A program made the translations under genes and the position numbers. A stretch of DNA of 64,000 bases, taken from Spirochaetota bacterium (GTDB lineage Bacteria > Spirochaetota > Spirochaetia > Treponematales > UBA12059). The notes under the pieces are model-generated. The model did no database searches, had not been told where the DNA came from, and worked only from the letters and a program-made list of their open reading frames with translations. Numbering within the stretch: the first letter of the stretch is position 1; each line of letters begins with the position of its first letter. Where the stretch lies: assembly GCA_022703505.1 (NCBI GenBank), contig JAKLDN010000004.1:62001-126000 (forward strand), given 5' to 3'. Positions 20,814 through 24,726 of this stretch are shown one piece after another.

Positions 20814-21596
20814 CTATTTGGGCGGGTCGCGGAGGGAGAAGGCCAGCACCAGCATCCCGTAGGTGACGGCCACGAAGAAGCTGAAGGTCAGGGAGAAGAG
20901 CACGGCCTTCGGATCCGACAGCGCCGCCAGGGTGCCCCGCACGGCCCGCACGGGGGTGAGCACCGCGTCCCAGGAGTTGAGCCTCACGAAGCGACCCAGG
21001 TAGACCCCGAACCCCGCAAGGATCACCGCCACCGTAAGGAAGACTCGCTCGAATCCACGGCCCCAGGCGTGGTCCAGCACCCTTCCCTCCACCCACATGG
21101 ATACGAGTCCCAGGAAATGCCCCACGAAGGCGAAGGCCCCGCTCATGACGATGTCGTACCAGAGGACCCCCCGGGTCCCGAGCCATTGGATCGTATCCGA
21201 GCGTATCCAGGTCTTCTCGGCGACGTGGATGAAGTCCGTGAACAGGTAAGGCGCGTTCGGGAAGAAGAGCAGCCACCCCAGGGCGCAGACGGAAACCAGG
21301 ACCGTCCGGGCCGGGCCGGGATTCAGGGTCCGGAGGAGGATTACCTGGACGGCTGCCATCCCCAGGGGGACGCAGGCAAGGAGGAGGTTCATCCCAAGGA
21401 AGGTGTAGAAGGGGTTGCCCAGAAGGGCAACTCGGACTGCCAGGAGGGACAGGCAGCCCGTGAGCGCCAGGGCGGCCAGGACCCCCAGGGAGAGGACGGA
21501 GCGGAAGGAAGGGATGGCGCCCGGGCGGGATTCCTCCCGGTCGCCTTCCTTGAGCAGGTCGGTCAAGGTTCCCTTCCCCCCGCCCCGCTGTGTCAC
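20814..21596 (-). CDS. DUF1361-like multi-pass membrane protein
   Basis: A protein of about 260 residues with roughly seven membrane helices, for example SVLSLGVLAALALTGCLSLLAV and ARTVLVSVCALGWLLFFPNAPYL. The segments FFPNAPYLFTDFIHV, WYDIVMSGAFAFVGHFLGL and LGRFVRLNSWD are those I associate with DUF1361, a family without assigned function. The GTG start at 21596 overlaps the thrS stop (GTGA), so translation is coupled to thrS and the gene would share T-box control. Why a membrane protein sits with a tRNA synthetase is unknown. The long open frame extending upstream into thrS is a by-product of high GC, not a fusion. Confidence 0.7.
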   Translation of the reverse strand: MTQRGGGKGTLTDLLKEGDREESRPGAIPSFRSVLSLGVLAALALTGCLSLLAVRVALLGNPFYTFLGMNLLLACVPLGMAAVQVILLRTLNPGPARTVLVSVCALGWLLFFPNAPYLFTDFIHVAEKTWIRSDTIQWLGTRGVLWYDIVMSGAFAFVGHFLGLVSMWVEGRVLDHAWGRGFERVFLTVAVILAGFGVYLGRFVRLNSWDAVLTPVRAVRGTLAALSDPKAVLFSLTFSFFVAVTYGMLVLAFSLRDPPK

Positions 21597-23326
21597 AGAT
21601 CCAACGCCTTGGCCCGGACCTTCCGGAGGACCCGGTCCGTGAAGTCCGCGATCTTGAGGGCCCCGAGCTGGGTCCCGTCCCGAAGACGCACGGCCACCGC
21701 CCCCTCCTCCGCCTCCTTCTGCCCCACGACCAGGATGTAGGGGATCTTCGAGTTCTGGGCGTTGCGGATCTTGGCGTTCATGCGGTCGTCCGAGAGGTCC
21801 GCCCGGGCACGGAGGCCCGCGGCCGCAAGCTCCCCGGCGACCTTCTTGGCATACTCGTCGAAGGCGGGGGCCACGGGCACAACCACCGCCTGCTCCGGGG
21901 ACAGCCAGATCGGGAAGGCCCCCGCGGTGTGCTCCAGATAGACCCCGAAGAAGCGCTCGATGGACCCCAGGAGGGCCCGGTGCACCATGTAGGGCCGCTT
22001 GCGCTGGCCGTCGGCGTCCACGTAGGTCATGTCGAAGCGCTCGGGTTCGTTGAAGTCGAACTGGATGGTGGTCAGCTGCCACTCCCGGCCGATGGCGTCC
22101 TTTACCTTGAGGTCGATCTTGGGACCGTAGAAGGCCCCGCCCCCTTCGTCCATCTCGTAGGCCAGGCCCTCCCTGTCCACCGCCTTGCGCAGGGATTCCA
22201 AAGCCTGGGCCCAGCGGGTGTCGTCCCCGACCGCCCCTTCCTTGGGCTTGGTGGCCAGGTAGGCCTTGATGTCCTTGAACCCCAGGGTCTTGTGCATGTA
22301 CAGGGAGAAGCGAAGGACCTCGAGGATCTCGTCCTCGATCTGTTCGGGGGTGCAGATGATGTGGGCGTCGTCCTGGGTGAAGCCCCGGACCCGCATGAGG
22401 CCGTGGAGGGTCCCCGACCGCTCGTAGCGGTACACGGTCCCGAGCTCGGCCCAGCGCAGGGGCAGGTCCCGATACGAGTGGACCCCGTTCTTGTAGATCA
22501 TGATGTGGAAGGGGCAGTTCATCGGCTTGATGTAGTAGTCGTCCTCGTCGATCTTCATGGACGAGTACATCCCCGCCTTGTAGAAGCCCAGGTGCCCCGA
22601 GGTCTCCCAGAGCCAGCTCTTGCCGATGTGGGGGGTGAAGAGGATCTCGTAGCCGTTCTGGTAGTGCTCCTCCCGCCACCAGTTCTCCAGGGCCACCCGG
22701 AAACGGCCCCCCTTGGGGTGCCAGTAGATCAGCCCGGGACCCGCCTCGTCGTGGGTGGAGAAGAGGTCGAGCTCCTTGCCCAGGCGGCGGTTGTCGCGCT
22801 TCTCCGCCTCCTCCAGCATCTTGAGGTGGGCTTCCAGGTCCGCCTTGGACCCGAAGGCGTAGGCGTAGATCCGGGTGAGCATGGGGCGCTTCTCGTCGCC
22901 CCGCCAGTACGCCCCGGCGATGGAGCGGAGCTTGAAGGCGTCGGGACGGAGGTCCCGGGTGGAGTCCACGTGGGGACCCCGGCAGAGGTCCCGGAAGGCG
23001 CCCTGCTCGTACACGGAGATGGTGCCGTCCGCGAGGCCCTCGATCAGCTCCAGCTTGAAGGGCTCGTCGGCGAAGAGGTTCTTGGCCTCCTCCTTGCTCA
23101 CTTCCCTGCGGACGAAGGAGGCCCCGCCCGCGATGATGCGCCGCATCTCCTTCTCGATGGCCGGGAGGTCGTCCGGCTGGAGGGGCTGGGGGAACTGGAA
23201 GTCGTAGTAGAATCCGTCCTCGATGGCGGGTCCGATGCCGACCTTGGTTCCGGGATGGAGCTTGACGACGGCTTCCGCCATGACGTGGGACAGGGAGTGG
23301 CGGACGGTTTCGACGGGATGGGACAT
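21593..23326 (-). CDS. thrS: Threonyl-tRNA synthetase lacking the TGS domain
   Basis: Charges tRNA-Thr; 577 residues against about 640 in E. coli. The protein starts directly at the editing domain, so the N-terminal TGS domain is absent. Editing motifs are present: HSLSH (H10, H14) and DLCRGPHVDST. The catalytic core shows class II motif 2 (YRYERSG), the zinc site MNCPFH, TQDDAHIIC and RPYMVHRALLGS, and motif 3 GSIERFF. The anticodon-binding domain is complete at the C-terminus. The ATG at 23326 has GAGGAG seven bases upstream. A T-box leader precedes it. A separate gene at 11741 carries the TGS-like and editing-like domains on a kinase. Confidence 0.96.
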   Translation of the reverse strand: MSHPVETVRHSLSHVMAEAVVKLHPGTKVGIGPAIEDGFYYDFQFPQPLQPDDLPAIEKEMRRIIAGGASFVRREVSKEEAKNLFADEPFKLELIEGLADGTISVYEQGAFRDLCRGPHVDSTRDLRPDAFKLRSIAGAYWRGDEKRPMLTRIYAYAFGSKADLEAHLKMLEEAEKRDNRRLGKELDLFSTHDEAGPGLIYWHPKGGRFRVALENWWREEHYQNGYEILFTPHIGKSWLWETSGHLGFYKAGMYSSMKIDEDDYYIKPMNCPFHIMIYKNGVHSYRDLPLRWAELGTVYRYERSGTLHGLMRVRGFTQDDAHIICTPEQIEDEILEVLRFSLYMHKTLGFKDIKAYLATKPKEGAVGDDTRWAQALESLRKAVDREGLAYEMDEGGGAFYGPKIDLKVKDAIGREWQLTTIQFDFNEPERFDMTYVDADGQRKRPYMVHRALLGSIERFFGVYLEHTAGAFPIWLSPEQAVVVPVAPAFDEYAKKVAGELAAAGLRARADLSDDRMNAKIRNAQNSKIPYILVVGQKEAEEGAVAVRLRDGTQLGALKIADFTDRVLRKVRAKALDL

Positions 23327-23416
23327 ACGGTACTCCTCGGGCGGGAAAGCGTTCCGGGCGCGTCCTGGCGCCTCCGGGATCCCTTCCCGGCGTTCTGGCG
23401 TAAGGACGAATCCCCG

Positions 23417-23435
23417 AAAAGCCCTCGAAGAAGGC
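23417..23435 (-). terminator. Candidate intrinsic terminator of the T-box leader
   Basis: On the minus strand GCCTTC-TTC-GAGGGC (one wobble) is followed by TTTTC. It lies about 40 bases after the T-box sequence and 90 before the thrS start, the position of a regulatory terminator. Its overlap with the antiterminator is not obvious, so control at the ribosome site cannot be excluded. Confidence 0.5.
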
Positions 23436-23716
23436 CCCCGCCCCCGGCGACGCCGGACGCGGTCTCGCGAATCCGCGGTACCACCTTACTTCGGACCCCG
23501 CCACCGGGCGGAATCCGCGCTCGAAACGCTGTGACGGGCGTCCCCGGCTTCCATTACGGACCCGTCGGATCGGGACGCGCACTGGGCGTGCCCCGGATCC
23601 TCCGGGCGGTTCACGGAAACGGCTCCGGAGTGGTTTTCGGCGGGTCCGCGACGGGGCCCTCTCAGCCGCGGGGCGCCCTCTCTCGGGACGCGGCGGTCCG
23701 CCTACTCGTCTCCATC
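23417..23716 (-). ncRNA. T-box riboswitch (tRNA-Thr sensing) in the thrS leader
   Basis: Read on the minus strand, the leader shows the T-box elements in order. GGAGACGAGTAG (about 23712-23701) is the Stem I base motif. CGAGAGAGGGCG (23685-23674) is the AG-bulge region. GGCTGAGAGGGCC (23667-23655) is the distal arm. GTGAACCGCC (23614-23605) is a specifier loop with the Thr codon ACC. AAGGTGGTACCGCGG (23487-23473) is the hallmark antiterminator sequence, followed by GCGTCC. Uncharged tRNA-Thr would stabilise the antiterminator and raise thrS expression. Boundaries are approximate and fine pairing was not computed. Similar leaders are typical of Firmicutes. Confidence 0.85.
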
Positions 23717-23760
23717 AAAGCCTGTGGGGTAAATATGGCGACGGAAGTGGCGGTTGGTCA

Positions 23761-23840
23761 AGGTAGTGAATACGTGAATAGTGAATATGTGAATAGGGCG
23801 CGCCCATTCACCCATTCACCCATTCACAGCAAGACTACCT
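23761..23840. repeat. Inverted GTGAAT heptamer element
   Basis: Four GTGAATA-type words lead to a GGCGCGCC centre and three ATTCACC words complete the other arm. Outer arms AGGTAGT (23761-23767) and ACTACCT (23834-23840) are perfect. The right arm reaches the stop codon of the EamA gene (23841-23839). The hairpin can serve as its terminator. No gene lies between here and the T-box leader. Confidence 0.75.
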
Positions 23841-24726
23841 ACCTCGCCACCACGATCCCCCCCACGACCAGGGCCATGCTGAAGGCTTGGGCCGCCGTAG
23901 GGGCCTCCCCCAGGAAGACCCAGGCCAAAAGGCCGCTCCAGATCGGCAGGGTGTAGTAAACCAGCCCGGCCTTGGCGGTCCCGATCCTCTCGATAGCCTG
24001 GTTCCAGGACACGAAGGCCGCCAGGGAGGCGAAGACCCCCACGTAGAGGACGGCCCCCAGAAGCGCCGGAGTCCAGGCTACGGGCGGGGCCGAGGCGCGC
24101 TCCCAGGCGAAGGCGGGAGCCAGCATCAGGGTGCCCAGGGCGAAGGTGGCGAACTGCAGGGTGGAAAGGCTCAAGCCCTCGGGTTTTCGCTTGAGCAGCA
24201 GGGTGTAGACCGAGAAGACCAGGGCGGCCAGGAGCATGAGCAGGTCCCCGGGGGCGAATCCGATGGACCGGAGGGCGTCCAGGCGGCCCTTGGTGACTAA
24301 AACCGCCACCCCGGCCAGGACCACGGCGATCCCCGCCAGGCGGCGGAGGGGCATCCGTTCCCCCAGGAAGATCCGGGAGAGCAGGAGGATGATGACAGGG
24401 AAGATCAGGGAGATCAGGGAGAGGTTGAGGGCCGTGGTAGTACGGCCCGCGTAATAGATCAGGGTATTGAAGAGGCTGACCCCCAGCAGGGCCGTGAGGG
24501 CCAGGTAGGGCAGGCTCCGCAGGACCGCCCGGCGCTCCCGGACGGCTCCGGGCAGGGCGAAGGGCAGGAAGGCGAGAGTCGCGGCAGCCCACCGGAGGAA
24601 GGCCAGGCTCACCGGGGGGATCGACTCCCTAAGGGCGCGGGCGATGAAATGGTTGCCGGACCAGAAGGCCGTGGCCGCCAGGGCGAAGAGGTACCCTTTG
24701 ACTCCATCCTTTACCGTTTCGGTCAT
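23839..24726 (-). CDS. EamA/DMT-family inner-membrane transporter
   Basis: A 295-residue protein with about ten membrane helices in two EamA halves. The first half begins GYLFALAATAFWSGNHFIARAL; the second begins LLMLLAALVFSVYTLLLKRK. Family members export small metabolites such as amino acids; substrate cannot be read from sequence. GGGGGGAAAGC precedes the ATG. It diverges from clpS. A second EamA gene lies at 52348-53283, not closely similar by eye. Confidence 0.85.
   Translation of the reverse strand: MTETVKDGVKGYLFALAATAFWSGNHFIARALRESIPPVSLAFLRWAAATLAFLPFALPGAVRERRAVLRSLPYLALTALLGVSLFNTLIYYAGRTTTALNLSLISLIFPVIILLLSRIFLGERMPLRRLAGIAVVLAGVAVLVTKGRLDALRSIGFAPGDLLMLLAALVFSVYTLLLKRKPEGLSLSTLQFATFALGTLMLAPAFAWERASAPPVAWTPALLGAVLYVGVFASLAAFVSWNQAIERIGTAKAGLVYYTLPIWSGLLAWVFLGEAPTAAQAFSMALVVGGIVVAR

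Follow-up and report, generated by a model that had tools for sequence, protein, structure and literature searches.

A threonyl-tRNA synthetase gene on the minus strand of the 64,000-nucleotide stretch of spirochaete DNA analysed here (the window) raises the question of whether its leader is a T-box riboswitch and, if so, how such an element came to be there and how it would turn the gene off. Wels et al. (2008) found a T-box in 0 of 6 Spirochaetes (PMC2494555), and a survey of 2013 confined T-boxes to Firmicutes, Actinobacteria, Chloroflexi and Thermus/Deinococcus together with Geobacter (PMC3766115). Translational T-boxes were sought chiefly in Actinobacteria for the TBDB database (PMC7778990). 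The openly licensed full-text literature yielded no description of a spirochaetal T-box; TBDB or Rfam may list some leaders without comment.

Architecture of the thrS leader

The gene, thrS (21593-23326, minus strand), encodes a protein of 577 aa in which Pfam recognised the class II synthetase core, the anticodon-binding domain and the SAD domain (PF00587, PF03129, PF07973); no TGS domain was found by Pfam at the N-terminus. The product is 80% identical to a spirochaete ThrS and falls into the Spirochaetota ThrS clade described below, which supports the earlier suggestion that the host is a spirochaete; its order is probably Treponematales.

Sequence reading and folding gave a leader of about 400 nt on the minus strand. 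It begins at a sigma-70-like promoter, TTGACC-18-CATATT (23732-23761, minus strand), which was recognised by consensus scan and by conservation. CTTGAC and CATATT-like boxes occupy the same position relative to the T-box in nearly all relatives, while the flanking sequence differs. Because the boxes are kept at a constant distance from the T-box, the transcript most likely starts at about 23725, at the T-box itself. An inverted array of the octamer GTGAATRG is located immediately upstream of this promoter (23766-23827). The octamer is present genome-wide in 110 + 124 copies, compared with 1 + 1 for the reversed control, and often forms facing arrays, that is, a dispersed palindromic repeat. 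Weak matches to microRNA families at 23740-23849 were dismissed as chance, the underlying sequence being the palindromic repeat.

A local search with the Rfam T-box model (RF00230) gave a full-length alignment with 23450-23727 of the minus strand (43.1 bits, E 4.3e-8). The same T-box was recovered in a whole-genome search (E 4.6e-8) and was the sole T-box of the 3.66-Mb genome. At the gathering cut-off, which is 93 bits for RF00230, there were no Rfam matches. The earlier note had named a score below threshold as grounds for refutation, and formally the score is below it. However, this cut-off has a low recall: matches were obtained in 5 control genomes, and just 2 of these reached it. We regard it as too strict for the score to count as a refutation. 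Orthologous leaders of relatives (e.g. L100-L109) do exceed it. The low score of the window leader is due in part, as judged from the alignment, to an insert in the antiterminator loop, owing to which Rfam misplaces the 3' arm. The motifs quoted in the earlier note were all found on the minus strand in the order given, among them GACGAGTAG (within 23702-23716), AGAGAG (within 23677-23687) and AAGGTGGTACCGCGG (around 23475-23489), and the E value of the match shows that their arrangement is far beyond chance.

Stem I extends from 23621 to 23722 (minus strand) and comprises the specifier loop with its AGUA side, the AGAGAG motif and a distal GGCUGAGAGG loop, as delimited by the Rfam alignment and by an alignment of 24 sequences from relatives. 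In the latter, 92% of the Stem I pair cells hold standard pairs. Both sides were altered in a compensatory manner in 16 of 22 pairs, a value attained in 0 of 500 shuffles, and none of the controls in which the pairing was slid came near the observed pairing.

The specifier is ACC, a threonine codon, at 23632-23634 (minus strand) in the context GAAA-ACC-ACUCCGGAGC (GAAA-ACC-ACUCC), and coincides with the Rfam-aligned specifier position. ACC stands at this place in 149 of 159 pattern-matched leaders, and inspection shows it in most of 30 further leaders that the pattern did not catch. It fits both the downstream thrS and the tRNA-Thr(GGU) of the same genome, with whose anticodon it pairs. The match of the specifier to tRNA-Thr is thus supported, while the position first assigned to the specifier was wrong: GTGAACCGCC (23605-23614) exists but lies outside Stem I, after it, and in relatives reads GTGAACGCC or GTGAAAGCC and is not conserved.

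Downstream of Stem I, a Stem III hairpin formed by CGGAUUCCGCC / GGCGGGGUCCG was read from the sequence at 23492-23517, and equivalent hairpins precede GAAGUAAGG in relatives. It is followed on the minus strand by the 5' arm of the antiterminator, GUAAGG-UGGUACC-GCGGAUUC (23469-23489), recognised from sequence and conservation. This arm contains the T-box bulge UGGUACC (23477-23483), the predicted receiver of the tRNA 3' end, whose variable base is U. The 3' arm, GGAUUCGUCCUUAC (23400-23413), is conserved in relatives and pairs with the 5' arm through 6 pairs below the bulge and 8 above. The loop between the arms is enlarged by a hairpin-forming insert of 55 nt (23414-23468), which is found in most relatives with differing sequence and is absent in L082.

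The fit between bulge and tRNA is incomplete. The genome has three tRNA-Thr genes, and each carries the discriminator U73, as does every tRNA-Thr(GGU) examined in relatives. The contact with the tRNA end, for which the earlier note asked as an NCCA-binding bulge, is canonical in part only: the UGG of the bulge can pair with the CCA of the tRNA end UCCA, but the variable U faces U73 in a U.U mismatch. UGGA, which pairs with UCCA, is the commonest bulge in leaders of the class outside the order. Pairing with the tRNA does not explain the bulge U, given that no tRNA-Thr(GGU) examined had a discriminator other than U.

Taken jointly, the match to the T-box model, the Pfam assignment of the gene, the conserved specifier, the paired structure and the position of the promoter are best explained if the leader is a genuine T-box riboswitch that senses the charging of tRNA-Thr, as the earlier note had proposed. 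On this comparative basis we consider that identification highly probable.

The competing hairpin and the ribosome-binding site

Stem I would recognise tRNA-Thr(GGU) through the specifier ACC. The CCA end of an uncharged tRNA would then dock in the bulge UGGUACC and stabilise pairing of the two antiterminator arms, leaving thrS switched on. With charged tRNA, the 3' arm would instead be taken up by a competing hairpin (23349-23422, minus strand), and thrS expression would fall. Binding of the tRNA, the response to its charging and the direction of regulation are inferred here from comparison.

Antiterminator and competing hairpin are mutually exclusive, because both contain the 3' arm. The segment, including a few flanking bases, folds with -38.8 kcal/mol, and the pairing CGUCC:GGACG recurs in nearly the whole family. 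The candidate terminator of the earlier note, GGCCTTCTTCGAGGGCTTTT (within 23417-23438), had to be rejected: its UUUU hairpin sits in the antiterminator-loop insert, and the real competitor of the antiterminator ends at 23349 with the tail UUUCCCG and without a U-tract. Two congeners have the tail CCUUCCC with just UU, compared with UUU in the window, and a scan found no terminator-like site in the window leader. In a sister family and across the class, an equivalent hairpin built from the same 3' arm often ends in at least five U's and is a classical terminator. Having neither U-tract nor scanned terminator, the window element is without the defining part of a transcriptional (class I) T-box.

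A further feature is located at the ribosome-binding site. The Shine-Dalgarno sequence and an adjoining GUACC, together GAGGAGUACC (23329-23338, minus strand), were recognised by conservation, and GUACC is complementary to the GGUAC of the bulge. GUACC before the start codon is kept in 19 of 19 family members, and among the 32 genes of the window thrS alone has GUAC before its start.

How the off state is read out may be considered in the light of these features. The competing hairpin lacks a U-tract, and its end lies about 20 nt upstream of the start codon. This makes a block of translation initiation, by itself or combined with weak or Rho-dependent termination, marginally more probable than intrinsic termination of the ordinary kind. 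One form that such a block might take is that, when no tRNA is bound, the bulge GGUAC pairs with the GUACC beside the Shine-Dalgarno sequence and masks it. This is a real possibility, if somewhat short of an even one. It is consistent with the distribution of GUAC near the start among 179 leaders (present in 55 of the 96 whose bulge has U and in 0 of the 83 whose bulge has a different base), with exact complements near the start in two bulge-A leaders (GGUUCC in L152 and GGUUC in L130), and with a bulge U for which the tRNA discriminator does not account. Several Treponematales leaders have just 29-36 nt between the 3' arm and the start codon, and thus little space for a terminator; in several, unconstrained folding gave a probability near 1 for pairing between bulge and Shine-Dalgarno sequence. 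Formation of the antiterminator opened the Shine-Dalgarno sequence in GUAC leaders and not in terminator leaders (p 5e-4), although such differences in exposure are confounded with G+C content. Several observations weigh against masking. The window leader itself gave a bulge:Shine-Dalgarno pairing of 0.01 and no opening with the antiterminator (0.42 to 0.38), and blocking the bulge arm in folding opened the Shine-Dalgarno sequence no more than did blocking other segments. Once relatedness on the tree is allowed for, few independent contrasts are left, about 4 in favour and 0 against (median p 0.125); the covariation of bulge and Shine-Dalgarno region is consistent but not significant. Because GGUACC is self-complementary, likeness and complementarity are not always separable, and among the exceptions to the pattern (L328, L355, L358) one, L328, which has bulge C, shows likeness.

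Transcription termination, in which the hairpin at 23349-23422 would halt RNA polymerase despite the tail UUUCCCG, or would do so together with Rho, is a somewhat more doubtful reading. The hairpin is very stable and matches the position of the U-tract terminators of relatives, three of them in the same family (L094, L096, L099; also L101, L109, L149), and short U-tracts persist in others (UUUUCC in L091 and L093). Against it stand the UUU of the window, the UU of its two congeners and the negative result of the terminator scan. That the element is a decaying T-box whose regulation has been lost might be suspected from the low Rfam score, the discriminator mismatch and the eroded U-tract; retention of specifier, bulge, antiterminator, promoter and Stem I pairs in the genus and the family makes decay improbable.

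Masking of the ribosome-binding site by the bulge is therefore suggestive for some lineages, and the folding of the window leader lends it no support. We put forward, tentatively and as something that we would still rate unlikely rather than likely, that in some spirochaete lineages, perhaps including that of the window, the thrS T-box has switched from control of termination to control of translation, with the bulge doubling as an anti-Shine-Dalgarno sequence and its variable base following the sequence before the start codon and not the tRNA discriminator. If this were true, the same seven bases would be contested by the 3' end of the tRNA and by the ribosome-binding site. Another possible bulge complement was observed in four leaders of thrS T-boxes (L209, L216, L245, L252): their bulge is UGGUAAC, and GUACCA stands immediately ahead of the Shine-Dalgarno sequence.

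Among known systems, the window leader resembles the class I T-boxes of thrS in Firmicutes (RF00230) in its long Stem I, which includes a specifier loop and the distal loop motif, and in the ACC specifier, the UGGN bulge, the antiterminator, the competing hairpin and the downstream thrS. It differs from them in that the hairpin of its genus lacks a U-tract, the antiterminator loop carries the 55-nt insert and the bulge U is opposed to a discriminator U. With the translational ileS T-boxes of Actinobacteria it shares the lack of a terminator, and for those a hairpin near or over the ribosome-binding site has been proposed (PMC1262725, PMC7583486). In most of the actinobacterial elements Stem I is short and the distal motif is missing, whereas the window element has a long Stem I and precedes thrS, and it is the bulge that is proposed as the masking partner. 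The leader carries a candidate for a new type of expression platform. Spirochaetial leaders form a natural gradation, from those that end in U-tract terminators to those that have hardly any space for one, in which the shift from a transcriptional to a translational T-box could be followed within a single gene.

Distribution and descent

A T-box was found upstream of thrS, one per genome, in 19 of the 23 genomes of the family. For the order, T-box matches were obtained in 78 of 294 genomes. For the class Spirochaetia the figure was 181 of 395 sampled genomes, with several single-contig genomes among those matched, and the large majority of the loci read in order and class precede thrS. A phylum-wide sample yielded one match outside the class Spirochaetia. 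In a tree of 69 ThrS sequences, those of Spirochaetota formed one clade (support 99), the nearest neighbour of which was a ThrS of the Anaerolineae (L023) whose gene bears a T-box motif.

The earlier note had left the choice between transfer together with thrS and a wider spread. The counts in order and class and the monophyly of ThrS decide for a wider spread and against a recent transfer; sequence comparison thus indicates that the thrS T-box is inherited lineage-wide within Spirochaetia. That the element was acquired horizontally not long ago, or that the contig is a contaminant, might be proposed because the closest ThrS outside the spirochaetes comes from a T-box-bearing member of the Anaerolineae, but with a well-supported Spirochaetota clade and T-boxes present throughout the class, also in single-contig genomes, either is very improbable. 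An ancient exchange with Chloroflexota is possible. The Anaerolineae have the T-box bulge motif upstream of several of their thrS genes; compared by this motif, they differ from the window in having UGGAACC where it has UGGUACC. Widespread as they are in Spirochaetia, thrS T-boxes are apparently undescribed in the openly licensed literature. Finding them there by vertical descent takes the known range of the T-box into a diderm class and has a bearing on the question of late spread versus old origin.

Two good-quality genomes of one genus within the family of the window (G020, G021) had no T-box match and have apparently lost the element. T-boxes also occur before other genes. In one genus of the order (g16), two with clear terminators (L122, L144) precede a tryptophan-synthase-beta-like gene. 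Two with the bulge UGGCACC (L118, L354) precede an aspartyl-tRNA-synthetase-like gene, and four precede transporter-like genes (L112, L131, L316, L324), the bulge being UGGUAUC in L112, L316 and L324. Members of family f16, which have small genomes, carry up to two T-boxes per genome before genes other than thrS (L194-L200, L224-L229, L239).
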